A program made the translations under genes and the position numbers. A DNA stretch of 37,766 nt, from the NCBI GenBank assembly GCA_945865565.1, contig CAMBEK010000018.1, positions 1 to 37,766 of the forward strand. Direction: 5' to 3'. Every line of letters starts with the position of its first letter. Position 1 is the first letter of the stretch. Source of the stretch: Pseudobacteriovorax antillogorgiicola (lineage in GTDB: Bacteria; Bdellovibrionota_B; Oligoflexia; Oligoflexales; RGVZ01). Below the pieces are notes generated by a model. It made no database searches, had not been told where the DNA came from, and saw nothing but the letters and a program-made list of their open reading frames with translations. Positions 4,764 through 21,768 of the stretch are shown piece after piece.

Positions 4764-6413
4764 TTAATTTACAGCCGCGCACGCCGCGCGGAGTTTGTGT
4801 CCGGCGGGACCAGAAAGTAGACGCTCGCTGATCTCACGTTGTTCGTCCAGAATTTCACCGAGGACTTGCCTGGTGGTCAGGGGATTTGCCAGCACCACGC
4901 GGAAAACCGTGCAAGGGTAGTTGTGGTGCTGGGGCAATTCGAACCGGGTCCGGGAGACAAAAGTTTTGCCTTTGGCACGCTGTGCCTTTTGGATCTCGCC
5001 CGTCAGGTCGCTGAGTGCATCGTTGATCCGGGCCGCAGCCGCAGCCCCGGCACGTTTGAGGGCCTCTCGTGCATACAATGGCACGTGACGATAGGTCAGC
5101 AGATTGAGTTCGGGTTCTGTGGTCAACTCAAAATCACTGGAAGACTGGATCATCTTTGCAAATTGCCCGGCCTTGCCGATTCCGAGGTCGATGAGCATTT
5201 CATAACCCTTGCGCCCCAATATGTGCAGCCCCGAATGAACGAGCATCGCCATGCCGGGGCGAGAACCTTCGAGGGTGTGCTTTCCAAGATCGCGGGAGCC
5301 CTTGCGGATGATGTATTGCGCAGAATGTTCGACCGAATCCAGCGCAGCCGGGTCTTTGAACAAAGTCATGCCGGCACCGACGGGGACGTAGAGTTGTTTG
5401 TGGGCATCAATGGTAACCGAGTCGGCGCATTCGATGCCCTTGAGCAGGCCGCGGTAACGATCAGAAAAAAGTGTTGGGGTTCCCCATGCGCCGTCGACAT
5501 GGAAATGGATTTTGTGTTCCGCGGCGATGGCAGCCATTCCTTCGAGGGGATCGACATGGCCTGTTTCGGTAGTTCCAGCCACGCCAACCAATGCGACGAT
5601 GCCGGCACGTCTGGCTTTTTGTTCGGCTATCTTGCGACGCAGGTCGTCCAGATCAAGGCGGTGATTTATGGTGTCCACCATGATCAGGTTGCGTTTGCCC
5701 AAACCGAGGACATCGCATGATTTTTTCAGGGAGTAATGTCCACGCTTACTAACCATAACCACGAGTTCATCGTAGCCCCAGGCGCGCATTCCAGCCATGA
5801 TCCCATCTTCGGAGATGCCAGCAAAATCGTCGCGAGGGGCCAGGAGGCGGTTGCGTGCAACCCACAAGGCGGTCAGATTGGCGACCGTGCCTCCGGAACA
5901 AAAAACACCCAGGGCATGATCACGGTTTTGAATCCATCGGCGGTAGAACTTGTCGTCAAAGGTAGGGGCGCGCCCGTAGATCAGGCGGTGCAGGATTCCA
6001 ATGACCTGGGACTCCATCGGCGTGAAAACCTTGGACGTTTCAATTTTGACCGTGTTCTGGTTCAGGGCGAACATGATTTTCGCCAAAGGCAGCATGAAAT
6101 AAGGGATGGCGGAAGTCATGTGGCCAATGAATGCGGGCGAGGCGGTGTGGACCGATTGAGCCACAACTTTTTCCAAAAGGAATTTAGCCTGCTCGGAGAC
6201 AAAACACGGGTCCTCCGGTAATGCGGATCCCATGAAATCACGTTCGAGTTTTGAAGGCGCTTGCTCTTCGCTGACGATGTGTTCGCGCAGAAATCCCACT
6301 AGATTTCGCGAAATTTCACGATCAATGGCGGCAAGTGCAGAGTCTTCGCCTTCTGGAACAGTGAAAACACGGCGCAAGTGTTCGAGGGACGCCTCGGCTT
6401 TCTTTTCGGTCAC
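4764..6413 (-). CDS. panP: PLP-dependent aspartate 1-decarboxylase PanP
   Basis: Group II decarboxylase that makes beta-alanine from aspartate for pantothenate and CoA, the alternative to PanD known from Vibrio. The 549-residue length and continuous similarity to Vibrio PanP as I recall it (LREHIV, SQSVHT, FIGHMTSA, LNQNTVKIETSK, FCSGGT, RGHYS, VGVAGTTETG, HTLEGSR, FRVVLANPLTT) make this more specific than a glutamate-decarboxylase label. The PLP lysine is K339 in DAHKQLYVP; D307 in HVD binds the pyridine nitrogen and H226 stacks on the ring. The start is GTG at 6413 and overlaps the previous stop by four bases (GTGA, 6410-6413). It is the largest enzyme in the leftward operon and links functionally with CoaX at 16496. 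Confidence 0.9.
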   Translation of the reverse strand: MTEKKAEASLEHLRRVFTVPEGEDSALAAIDREISRNLVGFLREHIVSEEQAPSKLERDFMGSALPEDPCFVSEQAKFLLEKVVAQSVHTASPAFIGHMTSAIPYFMLPLAKIMFALNQNTVKIETSKVFTPMESQVIGILHRLIYGRAPTFDDKFYRRWIQNRDHALGVFCSGGTVANLTALWVARNRLLAPRDDFAGISEDGIMAGMRAWGYDELVVMVSKRGHYSLKKSCDVLGLGKRNLIMVDTINHRLDLDDLRRKIAEQKARRAGIVALVGVAGTTETGHVDPLEGMAAIAAEHKIHFHVDGAWGTPTLFSDRYRGLLKGIECADSVTIDAHKQLYVPVGAGMTLFKDPAALDSVEHSAQYIIRKGSRDLGKHTLEGSRPGMAMLVHSGLHILGRKGYEMLIDLGIGKAGQFAKMIQSSSDFELTTEPELNLLTYRHVPLYAREALKRAGAAAAARINDALSDLTGEIQKAQRAKGKTFVSRTRFELPQHHNYPCTVFRVVLANPLTTRQVLGEILDEQREISERLLSGPAGHKLRAACAAVN

Positions 6414-6844
6414 GGCTGATCCATATGGCGCAGAAAATTTTGGAATTCGCGCTCGGTCGCTTGATCGAGCAGCAATTTAAAACGCAGGGTGGTCCCGTTG
6501 GTGTCTTTGTTCTCAAGTCGCGCCGCGACAAGTGGCAAGACAAACGGTGTGTTTCCGGGCAAACGGTCGGTGTGAAACTGTATGCGATAGAGGTCACCTG
6601 GGGACAACAGGCTGCCTGTGTCGTGAGGCAACTTCGATAAATCAATTTCAGCGCGGAGGCTGCCCGCTGAAATGGATGTGGCTGTGATGTCGAGGCTCAG
6701 GGCCCAGGGATCAAAATCCACAATCAGCCGCGCCGGCAGATGTACTTGGCTCACGCTCGCACCGAATTGGGCGCGCGTCGCATTAGCCAAGCCTTGAAGG
6801 CGGGCCAGCTGGCTCTTGTCGATTCTGGTGTGTAAACGTTCCAT
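6410..6844 (-). CDS. Small PilZ-like protein
   Basis: Predicted soluble protein of 144 residues, not firmly recognised. After a helical start (about 1-30) it has a beta-rich core with a pattern like a PilZ barrel: SISAGSL resembling (D/N)xSxxG, then LSPGDLYRIQF and a late strand with RFKLLL ending in a helix (EREFQNFL). An Arg motif expected for c-di-GMP binding is not obvious, so it may be a degenerate PilZ that does not bind the nucleotide. Start choice: ATG 6844 has CGGA upstream and lies 22 bases past the stop of the VTT-lipase gene; ATGs at 6889 and 6898 would overlap that gene. The stop overlaps the panP start. Gene is likely real; the fold is inference. Confidence 0.6.
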   Translation of the reverse strand: MERLHTRIDKSQLARLQGLANATRAQFGASVSQVHLPARLIVDFDPWALSLDITATSISAGSLRAEIDLSKLPHDTGSLLSPGDLYRIQFHTDRLPGNTPFVLPLVAARLENKDTNGTTLRFKLLLDQATEREFQNFLRHMDQP

Positions 6845-6866: not shown

Positions 6867-8318
6867 TCAGCCTTGCTGCAACAATACATTTTCCGCATTG
6901 GATTCGCTGTTATCTTTGGCCTTTGTGGGGCCGGGGGGGCCCAGAATGGCAGCAATCTGGTCGACGACTCCCCGGCTCGAAAGGAATTCGAAATGGGACA
7001 CCTCGTCCAGTTGGATCGGGTGGACTTGCGACGACCGTGGTTCGGGTTGGTAGAGGCCGTCTTTGCCGGTGGCAACACGGTCCCGGGTGGAGTGGAAGCA
7101 GTAAATGTCCAAGCCCTGTGGAATTGGCGAGCGATCAAGTTGTTTAAGAAAAGCTGAGCCGGGACGCATCTGCCACATGTCACGCCAGATCAAACCCAAG
7201 GGCGTGATCAAGGCCAAGTAAGTCAGTCGCGACCCCTTAAATGGTGTTCCAAGCGTAACGACTTTTTTGCAAAACTGGTTTCCGCCCATTCTCAGGAGCC
7301 ACCAAAGGGCCACCAAACCGCCCTTGGAATGGGCGACAATATGGATGTTCTTGATCCCATGACGGTCCAACTGGCGTTTGATCTTACCGTCAATGAATGT
7401 CGCACTGTCCAAAATGGAACTCGTAAAAAAGGTTCCAAGAAGTCCGCCCAGATTGAAAGAGATGACGTCATAGCCCTTTGCGGTCAGGTGTCGCTCCAGG
7501 ATTCTAAGGGACCTGCGGGTGGAAAAAAAACCGTACAGTAAAATGATCGGGGTGCGGTCTGGGCTCAGGTTGGTGCGGCGTTTGATGCGGTTGTTCCTGC
7601 GTACTTCGTTCACGAGCTCGACGTACACGAGGCGGGCCTGTTGCCACATGCTCCGGCCATTGCGCCGGGCCAGGAATTCTCCAGCCGCAAGGGGCAGAAT
7701 GACGGCCACGGCAATCAGGGCCAGTGTGTCAAAGGCAGATTCGGTAAGGGTTGCAGTCGGTGAACTCATTCGGGCGAAAAGCAGCGCCTCGGGCAGGGAG
7801 CCGGCCAGTGTCGTCCAGAGAATATGACGCCAGCGAAAGCCAAGTGCGCCAAAAAAAAGTGAGGCCAGATCGAACGGCACAAGGGGGACGAGGCGCAGGA
7901 AAAAAGCGATTTTGTAGTCTTGTTGCCTGATGAACGTCGAGGTTTGAGGGAGGTTTGCTGTCATCCACGGTGTGACCAGTTGCTTGCCCAGAATCCGGCC
8001 AATCCCGGTGATGATTACGGTGGAAGCCAGGCCACCAATTAACGTGTAGGCCGTTCCGTGCAGAGTTCCAAATGCCGGACCAGCGATCAGTCCCATAAAA
8101 AAAAACGGGGTAAAGACGAAAGGGCGCAGGGCAGAAAGCAGCAGGAAGGCGATGGGCCCAAGGCTCGTGTCGTAATCCACACAGGATTTGAGGCTGTCAC
8201 CGCATATCGAGGTCCAAAAAAAGGTCGAGACGAACATCAAACCCGCAACAATCATTGCCTCAATAAGCAAAACCCAGAGGATCTGCTCGCGGTAGCTGTA
8301 TGGTTGTTCCTGTTCCAT
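6867..8318 (-). CDS. VTT-domain (DedA/TVP38-like) membrane protein fused to an alpha/beta-hydrolase
   Basis: A 483-residue fusion. Residues about 10-220 form a VTT (SNARE-associated/DedA/TMEM64-like) membrane domain: several helices, the FFFMGLIAGPAFGTLHG re-entrant motif, GIGRILGK, then FFLRLVPLVPFDLASLFFG. Proteins of this class move or scramble lipids. Residues about 255-455 form a soluble alpha/beta-hydrolase with a lipase-type nucleophile elbow AHSKGG (S331) and a plausible triad with D413 (STRDR) and H442 (VSHFEF). The cytoplasmic or periplasmic side of the hydrolase is not certain. It is the first gene of the six-gene leftward operon, with AAGG four bases before ATG 8318. A lipid-acting role is inferred from both halves. 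Interfacial lipase, acyltransferase and thioesterase are all open. Confidence 0.85.
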   Translation of the reverse strand: MEQEQPYSYREQILWVLLIEAMIVAGLMFVSTFFWTSICGDSLKSCVDYDTSLGPIAFLLLSALRPFVFTPFFFMGLIAGPAFGTLHGTAYTLIGGLASTVIITGIGRILGKQLVTPWMTANLPQTSTFIRQQDYKIAFFLRLVPLVPFDLASLFFGALGFRWRHILWTTLAGSLPEALLFARMSSPTATLTESAFDTLALIAVAVILPLAAGEFLARRNGRSMWQQARLVYVELVNEVRRNNRIKRRTNLSPDRTPIILLYGFFSTRRSLRILERHLTAKGYDVISFNLGGLLGTFFTSSILDSATFIDGKIKRQLDRHGIKNIHIVAHSKGGLVALWWLLRMGGNQFCKKVVTLGTPFKGSRLTYLALITPLGLIWRDMWQMRPGSAFLKQLDRSPIPQGLDIYCFHSTRDRVATGKDGLYQPEPRSSQVHPIQLDEVSHFEFLSSRGVVDQIAAILGPPGPTKAKDNSESNAENVLLQQG

Positions 8319-8392: not shown

Positions 8393-9064
8393 ATGATAAG
8401 AAAATCCATTGTTGTCGGGGTGTTATTGTGGTTTTCAAGCGCGCTTTATGCCGCCTCAACCATAACCCCGGAAACGCTCCGTATCCGGGTCGGGCAAAAA
8501 CTTTCCGGTAAACAGAAAGACCTCATCCTTTCGGCCAGAAAGCTGCTCGAGGAGGCCTCTGTTTCTTATGTTTACGGTGGGGCAAAAATCGGGACAGCAA
8601 CCGATTGCGCCACTTGCAACCAATGCCTCGAGGCCGAGCGCCCCGCGGCGGACCGGCGTCTGCGCGTTTGTCCGGAGTGCAACCGCTGCAGCCTTGATTG
8701 CAGTCACTTCACACAGATTGCGTTCGAACGGGCTGGTATTGCGCACCCATATCTTACCTCGAAAGACATGGCGTCATTGTCGCCGGAACGTCTGGACAAG
8801 GGGTTTGGATTTTTGACCTTTGGGGCAGAGGCGAAGGTTGCTCAGCCCGGCGATTTGCTCGTTTACAAGGGGCACGTGGTGATGGTGGAGCGTCGTCGGG
8901 ATGAGGGCAGGGGTGACGTGATCCACGCCACCGGAGGACGCGACATCAAGGAGCCCGGCCAAGGCATCCAGCGCGAGCGCTGGGCAGATCTTGGGCACTT
9001 CCGGGGGCCTCTCTTGCGAATTTTGCGGCACAAGAGTCTAACCTCAACGGGTCAAGACCATTGA
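8393..9064 (+). CDS. Exported NlpC/P60-like peptidase with Cys-rich insertion
   Basis: Probable cell-wall endopeptidase or amidase of 223 residues. A signal peptide (hydrophobic core about residues 5-16, cleavage near LYA at 20) sends it to the periplasm. NlpC/P60 features: VSYVYGG, LDCSHF with the nucleophile C103, PGDLLVYKGHVVMV with H161, and VIHATGG with H178 as the third catalytic residue. Between the YVYGG strand and the nucleophile lies an unusual insert with C72, C75, C78 and C93, C96, C99, two CxxCxxC groups 15 residues apart, which could bind zinc or a cluster, or form disulphides. It is transcribed away from the VTT-lipase operon and is 88 bases before efp. The ATG gives the signal peptide; the Shine-Dalgarno is weak (AGGCAGG). 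Confidence 0.82.
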   Translation: MIRKSIVVGVLLWFSSALYAASTITPETLRIRVGQKLSGKQKDLILSARKLLEEASVSYVYGGAKIGTATDCATCNQCLEAERPAADRRLRVCPECNRCSLDCSHFTQIAFERAGIAHPYLTSKDMASLSPERLDKGFGFLTFGAEAKVAQPGDLLVYKGHVVMVERRRDEGRGDVIHATGGRDIKEPGQGIQRERWADLGHFRGPLLRILRHKSLTSTGQDH

Positions 9065-9152
9065 ACTTCTCGTTTTTCGGGGTTAAAGTCTGCGGTTCGA
9101 ATCGATTCCATTGCACGACTTGAATCATAGCCATCTGAAATCAGGGGACGAG

Positions 9153-9713
9153 ATGTACGCGACGACCGAATTTCGCAAAGGTCTGAAAATTGAATACAAC
9201 GCCAAGGCTTGGGTCATTGTTGACTTCCAGCACGTGAGTCCCGGTAAGGGATCGGCGTTTGTTCGCACCAAGCTGAAAAACCTGGAGACGGCGCAAGTGC
9301 TTGAAGTGACCTTCAAGTCCGGTGACAAGGTGGCGATTCCCGATGTGGAAACGCGCACGATGCAATACTTGTACAATGATGGCAGCACCTACACGTTTAT
9401 GGACAGCGGGACATACGACCAGCACACACTTTCCGCAGAAGAGCTCGGTGACAGCCGTTTTTACATCATTGAAAACAGCAGCGTGATGGTGACGTTCTAC
9501 AATTCACGTCCTGTTGCCATTGACGTGGACAACTTTGTCCTCCTGCGCGTCACCCAAACCCAACCGAACATCAAGGGCGATACTTCTGGCGGCGGCGGAA
9601 AACCGGCCACCATGGAGACTGGCCTTATGGTTTCGGTACCGTTTCATGTCAGCGAGGGTGATCTGTTGAAAATTGACACCCGCACCAACGCATATATCGA
9701 AAAAGTTAGATAA
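9153..9713 (+). CDS. efp: Translation elongation factor P
   Basis: EF-P, 186 residues, binds between the P and E sites of the ribosome and rescues stalling at consecutive prolines. The three-barrel protein is complete: KOW-like domain I with the tip loop SPGKGSAF, where K32 is the position modified by lysylation in the EpmA branch, then domain II (VLEVTFKSGDKV, MQYLYNDG) and the C-terminal OB domain (TSGGGGKPATMETG, VPFHVSEGD). ATG 9153 is chosen over an upstream in-frame ATG at 9111 because AGGGGA lies just before it and the length fits the family. No EpmA or EpmB gene is in the window. A client type is visible at 14755 (polyproline linker). It is followed by accB after 36 bases. Confidence 0.97.
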   Translation: MYATTEFRKGLKIEYNAKAWVIVDFQHVSPGKGSAFVRTKLKNLETAQVLEVTFKSGDKVAIPDVETRTMQYLYNDGSTYTFMDSGTYDQHTLSAEELGDSRFYIIENSSVMVTFYNSRPVAIDVDNFVLLRVTQTQPNIKGDTSGGGGKPATMETGLMVSVPFHVSEGDLLKIDTRTNAYIEKVR

Positions 9714-9749
9714 CCCGCAGCCTATAGGCATACTAAGGATTTAGCTGAA

Positions 9750-10187
9750 ATGGACTTCGCCAAGATTGAGAAGTTGATGGAACTCATGCGCAAGCATGGA
9801 ATGCAGGAACTGAGCGTTGCTGACGAGAGTCTCGAAATCAGCATCAAGGCCCCATCGGCGGCTGGCGTTCCGGTGCAGACGGCGGCTGCCGTGGTTCATG
9901 CCGTCGCCCACGAACCAGTGGCTGCAGGATCTGTTCGCCCGGCCAGCGCCAGCGGCAAGATGATCAAGTCGCCCTTTGTCGGAACCTTTTACCGGTCTTC
10001 TCAGCCCGGCAGCCCGGCATTTGTGAGCGTCGGTCAGCGCGTCAAAAAGGGCGAAGTTCTTTGCATTGTCGAGGCCATGAAACTCATGAATGAAATTGAG
10101 AGTGAAATGGATGGCGTCATTCGGGAGATTCTCGTGGATAACGAGCATCCCGTGGAATTCGATCAGCCACTCTTTATTGTCGAGTAG
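9750..10187 (+). CDS. accB: Biotin carboxyl carrier protein of acetyl-CoA carboxylase
   Basis: Carries the biotin that AccC carboxylates, for malonyl-CoA and fatty-acid synthesis. The 145-residue protein has the usual helical N-terminus ([14 protein letters not shown]), an Ala/Val-rich linker (about 35-68) and a C-terminal biotinyl domain with [10 protein letters not shown] and [11 protein letters not shown]111 in the AMKLM motif is the lysine modified by biotin ligase, which in this window would be the BirA half of the fusion at 16496. AAGGA about ten bases before the ATG supports the start. It is eight bases or fewer from accC, forming the common accBC pair. Confidence 0.97.
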
Positions 10188-10194
10188 GTTGATC

Positions 10195-11583
10195 ATGAAA
10201 AAGGTTCTGATTGCCAACCGTGGCGAAATCGCAGTCCGCGTGATCCGTGCTTGTCAAGAACTCGGCTTGCGCACAGTGGCCGTGCACTCCACCGCCGACC
10301 GGGATAGCCTTCACGCCAAATTAGCTGATGAAAGCATCTGCATCGGACCGGGTCCGAGTTCAAAGTCTTACCTTTCGATTCCGAGCATCATGAGCGCTGC
10401 AGAGTTGGCAGGCGTTGATGCAATCCACCCCGGATACGGATTCCTTTCTGAAAATCATGAATTTGCCAACGTGTGCCGTGCCTACGGAATCAAGTTTATC
10501 GGCCCAAAACCAGAACACATCCAGGCCCTTGGCAACAAGGTTTCGGCCCGTGCCCTGGCAGAAAAGGCCGGAGTCCCAATGCTGCCCGGCAGCCGCGGGG
10601 TTGTGCGAACGGAGGAAGAAGCCCACGCCATTGCGAAAGAGATCGGTTACCCGCTGATCATCAAGGCCGCAGCTGGTGGTGGCGGTCGCGGCATGAAAAT
10701 TGTTCACGACGAGGCCGATTTGTTTCGCTTGTTTCAACTGGCGCAGGTCGAGGCCTTGAATGGTTTTGGTAATCCGGATTGTTTTATCGAACGCTATTGC
10801 GCCCGCCCCCGCCACGTTGAAATCCAGTTGATCGCCGACGAGCACGGCAACATCCGCCATCTCGGAGAGCGTGATTGCTCCATCCAGCGCCGCCATCAGA
10901 AATTGATCGAAGAGGCACCGTGTCCGGTCTTGACCCAGGCTCAGCGTGAATCCATCGGAGCCACGGCGGTCAGCCTGGCTAAAACCGTTGGTTATCAATC
11001 CTTAGGAACCGCTGAATTCTTGCTCGATGAAGACGGGCAGTTTTACTTCATGGAAGTGAACACCAGGGTTCAGGTCGAGCATCCGGTTACGGAATTCGTC
11101 ACTGGCATCGACCTTGTGAAAGAGCAGATCAAAATTGCCATGGGGCAGGAGTTATCTGCCGCAGTTCGCGAAGCCAAACTATTCGGACATTCGATCGAGT
11201 GCCGGATCAATGCAGAAGATCCGTCAACCTTTGCGCCGTGGCCCGGAAAAATCACTGCCTACCACGAACCAGGTGGGCCAGGGATTCGCGTGGATAGTAT
11301 GGTGTATGCGGGATACACGGTACCTTCTCTGTACGATTCCATGATTGCTAAATTGATTTCATTTGGTCGTGATCGCGAGGAAGCTCTGACCAGAATGCGC
11401 CGTGCACTTCGTGAAATGAAGGTCGACGGGATTCGCACGAATATCGCGTTCCATTTAAAAGTCCTCGACGATCCGAAATTCATCGAAGGCGATTTTTCGA
11501 CAAAATTTCTTGAAACGTTTGTTCCACCTTCTCCGCAATCATCTCCGCAATCATCTCCGCAATCATCTCCGCAGGGTGGTTGA
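10195..11583 (+). CDS. accC: Acetyl-CoA carboxylase, biotin carboxylase subunit
   Basis: ATP-grasp enzyme that carboxylates the biotin on AccB. It shows the full biotin carboxylase layout: LIANRGEIAVRVIRA at the start, HPGYGFLSEN, the glycine-rich ATP loop AAGGGGRGMK, ERDCSIQRRHQK, FYFMEVNTRVQVEHPVTE with the catalytic glutamate and arginine, and the C-terminal domain with RINAEDP. ATG 10195 follows the accB stop by seven bases, with TAGGT upstream. The protein is 462 residues, about a dozen longer than usual; the excess is a Ser-Pro-Gln tail made by a 12-base tandem repeat at 11530-11573. The catalytic core is complete, so the tail is probably tolerated. Confidence 0.97.
   Translation: MKKVLIANRGEIAVRVIRACQELGLRTVAVHSTADRDSLHAKLADESICIGPGPSSKSYLSIPSIMSAAELAGVDAIHPGYGFLSENHEFANVCRAYGIKFIGPKPEHIQALGNKVSARALAEKAGVPMLPGSRGVVRTEEEAHAIAKEIGYPLIIKAAAGGGGRGMKIVHDEADLFRLFQLAQVEALNGFGNPDCFIERYCARPRHVEIQLIADEHGNIRHLGERDCSIQRRHQKLIEEAPCPVLTQAQRESIGATAVSLAKTVGYQSLGTAEFLLDEDGQFYFMEVNTRVQVEHPVTEFVTGIDLVKEQIKIAMGQELSAAVREAKLFGHSIECRINAEDPSTFAPWPGKITAYHEPGGPGIRVDSMVYAGYTVPSLYDSMIAKLISFGRDREEALTRMRRALREMKVDGIRTNIAFHLKVLDDPKFIEGDFSTKFLETFVPPSPQSSPQSSPQSSPQGG
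11530..11573 (+). repeat. 12-bp tandem repeat, 3.7 copies, at the end of accC
   Basis: Three exact copies of TCTCCGCAATCA (11530, 11542, 11554) and a partial fourth (11566-11573) lie end to end. They encode SPQS units in the last residues of AccC. Being a multiple of three, copy-number change lengthens or shortens the tail without breaking the frame. Confidence 0.95.
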
Positions 11584-12618: not shown

Positions 12619-13314
12619 TTATGATGCCTTGAGAAGCAGCATCAGGATGACGAGGGTGATGGCCGTGATGGTTCGCTTTTCACTGCGAATTGCTGGGACA
12701 AAGGTCGCGGGCCATGGCAGTTCATCCAGCGATGGAATTCTTGCAGGAGTCCACGCTGGAACTTTTTTCAGGTATTCCTCGTACTCACTGCCAAACTTTT
12801 TCAGCAGCAGAGATTCCTCGTATTTTACGATGTAGTAATACTGGAAGGCAAAGGCTGCGGCGGACAAAATTACAATCCACACCATTCCCGAATAGATGGC
12901 AACACCAGTGGTGATGAGAAAATTGCCAACGTAGAGCGGGTTGCGAACGATACCAAAAGCGCCTTCCGTGATCAGGCGTTGGTTGGTGCTGGAGGTGCGC
13001 GTGCGCGAAACGCCTCCGATGAACGACACAGCATACATCCTGATCAGTTCACCGGCTCCGATGACAAGCATGCCCAATGTCGCCGAGGCGACGGACGACT
13101 TTGCCGCAACCAGCATCAAAAGAATCAAGGGCACCGGTGTAAAGTCACGCAGCTGAAACAGCTTTTCGCCGATTTCGATGGGGCTCATCCGGGCCCAGTC
13201 ACCGCTCCCGCCGTTTGCGTCATTCGGGGCGTCGCCTTTGCTGGATCCTGATTCGGATCCCGCTTCTGATTGTGTCGCAGATTCTTTCACTGTTTCGTTC
13301 TCTTGTACCGTCAC
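12619..13314 (-). CDS. Membrane methyltransferase of the ICMT / phospholipid N-methyltransferase family
   Basis: A 231-residue integral membrane protein. Residues 1-45 are polar and disordered (Glu, Ser, Gly, Asp rich). Then come about four to five helices and the conserved family core near the C-terminus: GAFGIVRNPLYVGN, a hydrophobic helical pair, and YEESLLLKKFGSEYEEYLKKVPAW, the signature of isoprenylcysteine carboxyl methyltransferase-like and PEMT-like proteins, which use S-adenosylmethionine. The substrate in bacteria is usually unknown; a phospholipid or isoprenoid is the natural guess. The start is GTG 13314 with GGAG eight bases upstream. It lies 68 bases downstream of the RdgC-like gene on the same strand. 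Confidence 0.8.
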   Translation of the reverse strand: MTVQENETVKESATQSEAGSESGSSKGDAPNDANGGSGDWARMSPIEIGEKLFQLRDFTPVPLILLMLVAAKSSVASATLGMLVIGAGELIRMYAVSFIGGVSRTRTSSTNQRLITEGAFGIVRNPLYVGNFLITTGVAIYSGMVWIVILSAAAFAFQYYYIVKYEESLLLKKFGSEYEEYLKKVPAWTPARIPSLDELPWPATFVPAIRSEKRTITAITLVILMLLLKAS

Positions 13315-15638: not shown

Positions 15639-16499
15639 ATGTCCCGGCTTATGCATGATTTACACATCATTCAAATAGACCCGATTATCACCCGCGCCCT
15701 TGAAGAAGATTGGGGTTTCGGTGATTGGACGACCGACATTTGTGTTCCGGCGGACAAACTTTCTCACGCCACCATCATCGCAAAAGAAACGGCGCTCATC
15801 GCCGGGGTCGATATTGCGGCCGCAGTCTTTCGCAGGGTTGACCCGTCATTGACCATCCAAGCGGCGGTCAAAAATGGACAGCTGGTCCAAAAAGGCGACG
15901 TGTTACTTGAAATCAGTGGGTGTGCCCGGTCGATCCTCAAGGCGGAACGGGTCGCGCTAAATTTTTTCGCACGGATGTGTGGCATCGCCACCATGACTCG
16001 AGCCTTTGTCGACCAGCTTGAAGGCACCAAGGCCCAGTTGCTGGACACCCGCAAGACAACTCCGGGCCTACGCATCCTTGAAAAATCGGCAACTGTCATT
16101 GGCGGAGCCCGCAACCACCGGTTCAGCCTTTGCGACGGAGTCATCGTCAAGGAAAACCACATCCGTGCATCCGGGGGAATTAAACCCGCAGTGTCGCGTC
16201 TTCTTGAGAGCCTTCCGCCAACCCTCAAGGTGGAAGTCGAAGTCAGCAATCTCGAAGAAGTCCAGGAGGCTCTTGATGCTGGGGCTCATGTCCTTATGCT
16301 CGACAACATGTCGCTTTCGGAAATGGCCATGGCGGTTCGCACCGTGCGCGGTCGGGCCCTGATCGAGGCTTCTGGGAATGTTCGCTTGGAAAATGTCCGC
16401 CGTGTGGCAGAGACCGGCGTTGATTTCATCTCCACCAGCGCAGTGTTTCACTCGTCCCGCTGGGTGGACTTGAGCCTGCTTTTTAGTCTTGAACCATGA
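15639..16499 (+). CDS. nadC: Nicotinate-nucleotide pyrophosphorylase (quinolinate phosphoribosyltransferase)
   Basis: Converts quinolinate and PRPP to nicotinate mononucleotide in NAD synthesis. The 286-residue protein is full length, with ALEEDWGFGDWTTD at the start, KAERVALNFFARMCGIAT, LDTRKTTPGLRILEK, GGARNHRFSLCDGVIVKENHI with the substrate-binding His, Arg and Lys residues, VEVEVSNLEE, LMLDNM, and EASGNVRLENV near the C-terminus. Starts at ATG 15639 or ATG 15651 are both possible. Its stop overlaps the birA-coaX start (ATGA, 16496-16499), so the cofactor genes are translationally coupled. Kynurenine-derived quinolinate is conceivable given kynB at 2730, but the usual NadA/NadB route is equally possible. 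Confidence 0.96.
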   Translation: MSRLMHDLHIIQIDPIITRALEEDWGFGDWTTDICVPADKLSHATIIAKETALIAGVDIAAAVFRRVDPSLTIQAAVKNGQLVQKGDVLLEISGCARSILKAERVALNFFARMCGIATMTRAFVDQLEGTKAQLLDTRKTTPGLRILEKSATVIGGARNHRFSLCDGVIVKENHIRASGGIKPAVSRLLESLPPTLKVEVEVSNLEEVQEALDAGAHVLMLDNMSLSEMAMAVRTVRGRALIEASGNVRLENVRRVAETGVDFISTSAVFHSSRWVDLSLLFSLEP

Positions 16500-18109
16500 A
16501 TGAATTCGTAATCCACGAGGTTGTGGATTCGACCTCGGCCGAAGCCCAACGCATGTGCGCGGCACAGCACAAAGCGCCTTTTGCCGTCATGGCCAAACTT
16601 CAGACCGCCGGACGTGGTCGCCGTGGTCGAGGCTGGAGCAGCACGCCTGGCAATCTGATGATGACCGTGGTCTTGCCCGCCGAACTTTGGACCGCGGGTC
16701 CCGAACGGGAAACAGCACCACTAAAGGCAGCGGTCTTGGTTGCGCGCTTCATCCGCGAACATTTTGGAATCAGGATCACCTTGAAGTGGCCGAATGATTT
16801 GCTGTTTGCGGGCCGCAAGTTGGGCGGGATCCTTTGTGAAAGCAGCTCCACGGGAGCCAGCTTCGGCGAACTGCTCATTGGGATCGGCCTCAATATCGCG
16901 GCAGCTCCGCATTTGTCCGGTCCAGACCGTGTCGGCACAATTTGCCTTGAGGACATTGTGGGACGCCAGAGCCAGCGACTGCCTGATGTTGCGATTGTGG
17001 GCCGCGAGCTTGCCGCATGGCTGCTCGGCAATTGGACCTCACTGGAATCGCAGGCGTTGCCTGCCTGCTTTGCTGAATACGGCATCACAACCGGGCAAAT
17101 CTTCGTCAGCAGCGGTCAGACTGCCGTCAACCATGGAATCGACGCGACGGGAGCCCTGGTTCTTGAAACGCACAAAGACCTGCAGAAATTGCATTTAACC
17201 AGTGCCGATCAACCCTGGCGCTGGATTTATCAGGATCTCGCCGGGAACGTCGATGATCCTTTCTCGGGGGAAAGCGCCCCAATCTTGATTGCAGATGTTG
17301 GCAACTCGCGGATCAAATGCGCGGTCTGGAAGTCGGTTTTTGCCAAGGCTCCTGTTTTTTCTGCCAGCTTCACCGTGGCTGAGCTGGCATCGGTCGATTG
17401 GGCAGGGATTGTGCGCGCTGCTTCTCCCGCTTTCCCGCAGATCCCGCTGGTTTGCCATGCGGTTTCTGTAAGCCAAACAAACATGGACATGTTTTCTGAA
17501 GTTGCAAAAGCCAATGGCATCAGTGTGCAGTCATTTGAAAAGCGTCCAGTTTTGCTTCGCACCAGTTATTTGTGGCATGAAATTGGCGCTGACCGTGTTG
17601 CTGCGATTGAAGGTTTTCTTGCCGGGGTCGAAGATACGGCCCGGGGTGATGCCAATTCAATTGGAATTGTAGTCTGTGCTGGAACTGCAACCACGATTGA
17701 TGCCGTCACTTTTGCTGGGCGCCACCTGGGCGGTGTGATCATCCCTGGCTTGACCACATCTCTTAATGCCTTGCATGAGGCTGCACCCGCACTGCCGGAT
17801 TTGTCGCGTGAGGCTGCCAAAATTTCATCGGTCGATATCATGGCGATGTCGACCCACGATGCAATCCTTGGTGGAGAACGGGCCATGGTTGCCGGGGCAA
17901 TTCAAGTTCTGGTGGAAGCCGCCAAGGGAGATCTAAACCCGCAAATTACGGTTGTGTTTACGGGTGGTCACGCCAATACCGTGATGCTAGGCTTTAAAAA
18001 GTCGACGACAATTGAATGCAATTTGGTGGTCAAAGAGCATTTGATTCTGGAAGGCGCGAGGTCGATGGTGCTAGGGGGCGTCATGCACGATGCTTTTTCT
18101 GGTACTTGA
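16496..18109 (+). CDS. birA/coaX: Bifunctional biotin-protein ligase / type III pantothenate kinase (BirA-CoaX fusion)
   Basis: A 537-residue fusion. Residues about 1-250 are a biotin ligase: STSAEAQRM, the biotin/AMP loop GRGRRGRGW (39-47), KWPNDLL with K97, GRKLGGIL and IGIGLN, plus a C-terminal cap. There is no N-terminal helix-turn-helix, so it is not a repressor. Residues about 262-537 are type III pantothenate kinase: IADVGNSRIK phosphate loop, GADRVAAIEGF, GTATTIDAV and LGGVIIPGL. The residue before AGTATT is C394 where many CoaX have Asp; I recall a non-Asp residue there in Neisseria BirA/CoaX too. It activates biotin for AccB (9750) and phosphorylates pantothenate for CoA, downstream of PanP. 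The start overlaps the nadC stop. Confidence 0.93.
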   Translation: MNEFVIHEVVDSTSAEAQRMCAAQHKAPFAVMAKLQTAGRGRRGRGWSSTPGNLMMTVVLPAELWTAGPERETAPLKAAVLVARFIREHFGIRITLKWPNDLLFAGRKLGGILCESSSTGASFGELLIGIGLNIAAAPHLSGPDRVGTICLEDIVGRQSQRLPDVAIVGRELAAWLLGNWTSLESQALPACFAEYGITTGQIFVSSGQTAVNHGIDATGALVLETHKDLQKLHLTSADQPWRWIYQDLAGNVDDPFSGESAPILIADVGNSRIKCAVWKSVFAKAPVFSASFTVAELASVDWAGIVRAASPAFPQIPLVCHAVSVSQTNMDMFSEVAKANGISVQSFEKRPVLLRTSYLWHEIGADRVAAIEGFLAGVEDTARGDANSIGIVVCAGTATTIDAVTFAGRHLGGVIIPGLTTSLNALHEAAPALPDLSREAAKISSVDIMAMSTHDAILGGERAMVAGAIQVLVEAAKGDLNPQITVVFTGGHANTVMLGFKKSTTIECNLVVKEHLILEGARSMVLGGVMHDAFSGT

Positions 18110-21120: not shown

Positions 21121-21768
21121 GTGAAAATCCATGCAACAATAACTCGTGTTCTTTTCCCGTTGATGTTCTCGCTGATGGTCTCGTTGTTTGAATCCTTGTT
21201 GGTTTCCTGCGCGCAACAAGGCGGGCAGAGTTCATCCAATTCCAGTCTGGAATCCGTCGGCCCAACAGTGGAATTAACGCAGCCCCCCAAACCGGTGCTG
21301 TTAGTTGATCTGCAGCGCTACGCTGGAACTTGGTACGAGATTGCAAGTTACCCACAATGGTTTCAGCGCGGTTGCAATTGCACGCGGGCCCGTTACAGCA
21401 AGAAAGACGACGGGACCATTGCGGTCGTCAATTCATGCAACCGCGAGAGTGTGGATGGGAAGTATTCAGTCGCGGAAGGAACGGCAGTCGTTCAGAAAGA
21501 TCCTGCTGGTTCAAACTCACGGCTCAAGGTCTATTTTTTCCTTCCTTGGCTTCGCCTGTTTGGGGGCGACTATTGGATCATCGGGTTGGACGAGGAGCAT
21601 CGTTGGGCAGTGGTGGGCGACCCCAGCAAAAAATACCTTTGGATCCTCTCGCGTACGCCAAGCCTCGATGATGCAGAATTGCGCAGGGGCAAGTCCGTTA
21701 TTGAGTCAAACGGACTCGATCTGACGGCGTTGCAATGGACGGTTCAAAAAGGCTGCGTTTATCCCTAG
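21121..21768 (+). CDS. Lipocalin-family outer-membrane lipoprotein (Blc-like)
   Basis: A 215-residue lipocalin, a beta-barrel that binds small hydrophobic ligands such as fatty acids or lysophospholipids. It has a lipoprotein signal with lipobox ending LLVSC (C30 lipidated), a Gln/Ser linker, GTWYEIASYP (the first lipocalin motif), RYSKKDDGTIAVVNSC, GDYWIIGLDEEHRWAVVGDPSKK and WILSRTPSLDD, all in the order of bacterial Blc. The start is GTG 21121 with GAGGAG upstream. Cysteines in CNCTRA and NSCNRE could pair. Its stop shares the tetramer CTAG (21765-21768) with the stop of the convergent mtaB gene. Confidence 0.9.
   Translation: MKIHATITRVLFPLMFSLMVSLFESLLVSCAQQGGQSSSNSSLESVGPTVELTQPPKPVLLVDLQRYAGTWYEIASYPQWFQRGCNCTRARYSKKDDGTIAVVNSCNRESVDGKYSVAEGTAVVQKDPAGSNSRLKVYFFLPWLRLFGGDYWIIGLDEEHRWAVVGDPSKKYLWILSRTPSLDDAELRRGKSVIESNGLDLTALQWTVQKGCVYP

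Follow-up and report, generated by a model that had tools for sequence, protein, structure and literature searches.

The window analysed here, a stretch of 37,766 nucleotides from Pseudobacteriovorax antillogorgiicola, encodes a genuine fusion of a VTT membrane domain and a lipase-type serine hydrolase within one polypeptide chain. The gene lies at 6867..8318 on the minus strand and specifies 483 residues from an ATG start with no internal stop; the plus strand carries stops in the same interval and frame. A sequence-only reading of this DNA had proposed such a fusion and placed it correctly at 6867–8318, leaving the strand unstated. A Pfam domain search, of the kind that reading had advised, returned VTT_dom (Pfam PF09335) over residues 74–182 (E 4.9e-11; 43.6 bits against a curated cut-off of 33.9) and Abhydrolase_1 (Pfam PF00561) over residues 257–361 (E 3.6e-12; 46.9 bits against 25.8), so both domains score above their cut-offs. 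Both were also matched in all 25 orthologues scanned, VTT_dom at E ≤ 0.001, and an NCBIfam search yielded no model covering the whole fusion protein.

Distribution and conservation

Among 58 genomes of its phylum, 40 carry a full-length orthologue: 40 of the 43 from the order Oligoflexales and none of the 15 from other orders of the class. The three Oligoflexales genomes without one are 72%–93% complete, and absence there is not firm. One open frame is shared by all 40 carriers, which rules out a frameshift or a chimeric assembly; the two outcomes that had been named as fatal to the fusion, a frame created by assembly and absence from relatives, were thus not observed. A chance open frame is likewise ruled out by the Pfam matches, by the presence of both domains in orthologues, and by the ratio of nonsynonymous to synonymous substitution (dN/dS).

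A scan of contigs matched same-genus loci only. The relatives at loci L021–L023 are metagenome-assembled genomes, two designated Oligoflexales bacterium and one Pseudobacteriovorax antillogorgiicola, both names falling within Oligoflexales, Bdellovibrionota. No relative of the fusion was found in the viral contigs searched, it was unmatched in the phages searched, and a plasmid search gave single-domain partial matches only, never the whole fusion; spread by virus, phage, or plasmid is ruled out by these searches.

Orthologues share 33%–50% sequence identity, and an alignment of 30 of them contains 51 invariant positions. Same-genus dN/dS (NG86) is approximately 0.05–0.16 for the VTT half, the linker, and the hydrolase half; all three are under purifying selection, which is similar in the two halves. 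By the same measure, the last 23 residues, forming the C-terminal tail, are under far weaker constraint than the rest.

The VTT half

The VTT core (residues 74–182, 7773..8099, minus strand) is assigned by sequence comparison to the COG0398 (YdjX/TVP38/TMEM64) subfamily. With hhalign, the VTT half matched Escherichia coli YdjX (COG0398) at E 1.7e-12 and gave no significant match to YabI (COG0586, 0.017) or YqaA (COG1238, 0.01), and is therefore closer to YdjX than to the representatives of the other two subfamilies. A tree was drawn, with a hand-chosen root, from 25 fused halves, three E. coli proteins, and 21 further VTT proteins from Oligoflexales. In it, the 25 fused halves all fall into a single clade (local support 0.77), which groups with YdjX and COG0398-like proteins. 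Such a clade fits a fusion that arose once and was then inherited vertically.

The sequence-only reading had also described a re-entrant motif, which here is a prediction from sequence alone: the structural model has low confidence across its VTT part (pLDDT about 30–45, with four close homologues used), and no claim is based on that part. The predicted region of re-entrant helix 1 (residues 58–84, 8067..8147, minus strand) owes its re-entrant character to analogy with the DedA literature (PMC10127716) rather than to the model. As in COG0398 proteins, the tip of this helix bears no acidic residue, with neither D nor E occurring anywhere in residues 58–84 of the window protein, and the segment contains Arg65-Pro66, which is invariant in the 30 orthologues and specific to the family. 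The predicted region of re-entrant helix 2, RLVPLVPFDLASLFFG (residues 136–160, 7839..7913, minus strand), aligns with YdjX RLIPLFPYNIQNYAYG; Arg142 and Asp150 are invariant within it, and outside the fused family Asp150 is present in just a few divergent stand-alone VTT proteins. R65 and D150 therefore map to the two segments corresponding to the re-entrant helices, which is where substrate contacts are expected in DedA proteins (PMC10127716); a contact between these two residues would be a guess.

The loop bearing Cys39 and Cys46 (8181..8204, minus strand) is predicted to be periplasmic from its charge. Both cysteines are invariant in the 30 orthologues and absent from the 24 VTT proteins compared, and a disulfide between them is possible. 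N122 and P124 are similarly invariant in the fused family and absent from the stand-alone VTT proteins compared. With the DedA/VTT proteins of COG0398 (E. coli YdjX, TVP38/TMEM64 type), the fused proteins share the VTT core, a GxxFG following re-entrant helix 1, and RLxPxxPF/Y at re-entrant helix 2, but add to these the C-terminal hydrolase and the invariant C39/C46, R65-P66, D150, N122, and P124.

Topology and linker

Averaged hydropathy and charge suggest a cytoplasmic N terminus and a first helix, followed by the periplasmic C39/C46 loop (one K/R, three D/E), re-entrant segment 1, a further helix, and a cytoplasmic loop (four K/R, one D/E). Re-entrant segment 2 and two more helices come next, and the chain then passes through a basic linker into the hydrolase. 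The linker follows the last membrane helix (residues 214–253, 7560..7679, minus strand), has 10 K/R against three D/E over residues 213–253, and holds five residues that are invariant in the 30 orthologues (Glu214, Arg218, Glu234, Glu238, and Asn243). Because of this distribution, with its basic cytoplasmic loop and strongly basic linker, the positive-inside rule would place the hydrolase in the cytoplasm, and a periplasmic hydrolase is disfavoured; the topology prediction that had been recommended for placing the enzyme thus points to the cytoplasmic side. Two conserved cysteines in the predicted periplasmic loop agree with an oxidising compartment. N- and C-terminal orientation differs among DedA subfamilies (PMC10127716).

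The hydrolase half

The alpha/beta hydrolase core (PF00561; residues 257–361, 7236..7550, minus strand) contains the nucleophile elbow AHSKGG (residues 329–334, 7317..7334), which aligns with AHSMGG of the lipase 6nkc. One clade varies at the third glycine of the elbow, reading HSKGS or HSKGT. The codon of Ser331 is at 7326–7328, that of the catalytic Asp413 at 7080..7082, and that of the catalytic His442 at 6993..6995, all on the minus strand; Asp413 aligns with the Asp of YSTSD and His442 with the His of VSHVGLL in 6nkc. All three residues are invariant in the 30 orthologues and, together with the AHSxGG elbow, occupy LipA-like positions, bearing out the plausible Ser-Asp-His triad that had been read around AHSKGG. 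That the triad is intact argues for an active enzyme.

When compared by sequence with solved structures, the hydrolase half matched lipases best. The first named is 7x2p, the Legionella effector RavL (E 8.5e-19); the others include LipA-type enzymes and a lipase from a marine Streptomyces (5h6b/5h6g). A model of residues 254–461 is of medium confidence, its core pLDDT being mostly 65–83 and falling under 50 around residues 358–388 and 414–428. It aligned best with LipA-type lipases (Z 14.5–15.8, approximately 3 Å over about 160 residues); LCAT, lysosomal phospholipase A2, and PGAP1 are the next structural matches (Z ~14), about 2 Z units lower, where matches within 1 Z unit count as tied. Pfam scores of the window protein for PGAP1 (22.3 bits against a cut-off of 24.3) and LCAT (16.6 against 21) fall below their cut-offs, and weak PGAP1 similarity occurs in 18 of 25 fusion members.

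Compared with Bacillus LipA-type lipases (1i6w, 6nkc) and COG1075-like hydrolases, the hydrolase half has the same fold, A-H-S-x-G-G elbow, and Asp and His positions, but it is membrane-tethered, predicted to be cytoplasmic, and without a secretion signal of its own; sequence identity is 21%–24%. It also possesses an additional hydrophobic insert, TYLALITPLGLIWRDMWQMRPGSAFL (residues 363–396, 7131..7232, minus strand), which is conserved in the alignment and may form a lid that rests on the membrane. The concern that either half might derive from a family remote from lipids was not borne out, both being from lipid-linked families; LipA-type and PGAP1-like folds do, however, also occur in enzymes acting on other substrates, which counts against a lipid reading.

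Gene neighbourhood

Synteny was surveyed at 21 loci across Oligoflexales. A small gene of 144 residues (6410..6844, minus strand) begins 22 bp after the fusion stop, and its cluster is represented in 7 of these loci. Weak PilZ matches (E 8e-5, 0.0025) occur among its orthologues from other genera, and it is a possible partner of the c-di-GMP-type or degenerate PilZ kind. The same gene cluster includes panP, encoding aspartate 1-decarboxylase (4764..6413, minus strand; TIGR03799, 814 bits against a cut-off of 606), a homologue of which is near the fusion in 11 of the 21 loci. On the other side, a conserved, usually divergent, and weakly NlpC/P60-like gene (8393..9064, plus strand) is near the fusion in 15 loci; its product bears a cysteine cluster, CxxCxxC...CPECNRC. 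Beyond it lie efp, accB, and accC (9111..11583, plus strand), identified by NCBIfam and synteny and present in 17, 15, and 16 of the loci, respectively, accB having been found separately. The fusion is divergent from the accB/accC side and does not form one operon with it, which counts against the mechanism proposed below. The proximity of panP and acetyl-CoA carboxylase genes points to CoA and fatty acid supply, but such context is no more than suggestive.

Elsewhere in the window, 16496–18109 (plus strand) is a single frame encoding both a biotin ligase (BPL_LplA_LipB) and a type III pantothenate kinase (Pan_kinase), which, with panP, accB, and accC, makes up a grouping of CoA, biotin, and acetyl-CoA carboxylase functions. 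A Lipocalin_2 (Blc-type) gene is at 21121–21768 (plus strand; E 3.7e-45), and 12619–13314 (minus strand) encodes a PEMT-type membrane methyltransferase that possibly acts on lipids.

Proposed mechanism and alternatives

COG0398 proteins are proposed phospholipid scramblases and their eukaryotic relatives are scramblases (PMC10127716); in the literature examined, no bacterial COG0398 protein has been demonstrated as one. The working proposal that we favour, which we rate as somewhat short of an even chance, is a single-chain inner-membrane enzyme that moves and cuts lipid, the VTT domain presenting a lipid and the hydrolase deacylating it. The COG0398-type VTT domain, a member of the DedA superfamily, would provide a lipid path through the inner membrane and bring a phospholipid or lysophospholipid of the outer leaflet to the cytoplasmic face. 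There the LipA-like serine hydrolase tethered to it would cut off an acyl chain via Ser331-His442-Asp413, and the freed acyl group could feed back into the turnover or remodelling of lipids. We infer the topology, the lipid movement, the hydrolysis, their coupling, and the substrate in this scheme. A more far-reaching form, about which we are doubtful, is a true scramblase-lipase, in which one chain would carry a particular lipid across from the outer leaflet to the inner one and cut it in the same step, with the family-unique Arg65-Asp150 pair setting the choice of substrate.

It is also conceivable, though rather unlikely, that the VTT domain acts as an anchor or sensor without lipid transport, leaving the hydrolase to act on inner-leaflet lipids or membrane acyl carriers. 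Simple membrane-anchored phospholipases do exist, such as PlaF of Pseudomonas aeruginosa (PMC9132575), and the nearby accB/accC and panP would also fit thioester chemistry. A mere anchor would, however, not be expected to keep R65, D150, and R142 invariant at both re-entrant helices over 33%–50% identity, nor to be under constraint equal to that on the hydrolase. The family-specific invariants R65, P66, D150, C39, and C46 argue in the same direction, and conserved residues of this kind along the predicted lipid path favour an active VTT domain over an anchor. Alternatively, the hydrolase may be an LCAT-like acyltransferase or transacylase, or a PGAP1-like deacylase of a lipid-linked molecule, to which the VTT domain brings an acyl donor or acceptor. 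We consider this improbable: the weak resemblance to PGAP1 and LCAT in Pfam would fit it, as would the structural matches to these proteins and to lysosomal phospholipase A2, but the Pfam scores are below the cut-offs, and LipA-type lipases rank first both by sequence and by structure.

Recycling of undecaprenyl phosphate (UndP) by the VTT domain in the manner of COG0586 DedA proteins, with the hydrolase acting on the cell-wall lipid carrier or its inhibitor, appears very improbable. The VTT half does belong to the DedA superfamily and the divergent neighbour is NlpC/P60-like, but the hhalign match to YdjX over YabI disfavours a UndP flippase, and COG0398 proteins are judged unlikely to be such flippases (PMC10127716). 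Moreover, COG0586 proteins are marked by an acidic pair in helix 1 and an arginine pair in helix 2; the first re-entrant segment here lacks acidic residues, and re-entrant helix 2 carries a single arginine, R142, Pro148 aligning with the second arginine of stand-alone DedA proteins.

Relation to known systems

Fusion of VTT domains to enzymes is a known concept: DedA-type fusions with Pyr_redox (COG0398) and with PAP2 and rhodanese (COG0586) have been described (PMC10127716), and these likewise unite a DedA-type domain and an enzyme in one chain. They involve other enzyme classes, and a fusion to an alpha/beta hydrolase is unmentioned there. In the open-access literature, supplements aside, no report was found that describes a lipase-type hydrolase joined to a VTT domain; the sequence-only reading, which knew of no characterised protein of this order, therefore agrees with this limited search as to the particular pairing, but the general idea of a VTT-enzyme fusion was already known.

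Pairing of a transporter with an acyl-chain enzyme has precedents in LplT/Aas (PMC11416262), in PAP2-DedA (PMC10127716), and in the same genome as the fusion. The LplT/Aas system and its fused form couple a lipid flippase to an acyl-chain enzyme at the cytoplasmic face, as is proposed here, but combine an MFS transporter with an acyltransferase, add an acyl chain, and have folds unrelated to those of the fusion. PlaF is similarly a membrane-bound alpha/beta hydrolase with a proposed role in turnover of the cell's own phospholipids (PMC9132575), but is without a VTT domain. TMEM41B, VMP1, and TMEM64 are related to the bacterial COG0398 VTT proteins, whose cargo is an open question (PMC10127716). 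A hydrolase product is measurable, and the substrate cut would indicate what the VTT domain likely presents. The fusion would add acyl-chain removal to the known single-chain couplings of lipid transporter and lipid enzyme, and a scramblase-lipase, if true, would give a bacterial COG0398 VTT domain its first defined physiological role and substrate.

The precedent in the same genome is a 624-residue protein, LplT-like at its N terminus, in which an MFS transporter is fused to a PlsC-type acyltransferase and the ligase part of Aas is missing (L060:792–2666, minus strand); it is a parallel in that lipid transporter and acyl-chain enzyme share one chain. Matches to the LplT-type family occur in 14 of 24 genomes, none above the cut-off and several in frames of 612–654 residues, and across these 24 genomes they show no clear complementary pattern with carriage of the VTT-hydrolase fusion. 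The known VTT-Pyr_redox type is also present in Oligoflexales, where a VTT domain is joined to a pyridine nucleotide-disulfide oxidoreductase (L056:1393–3534, plus strand).
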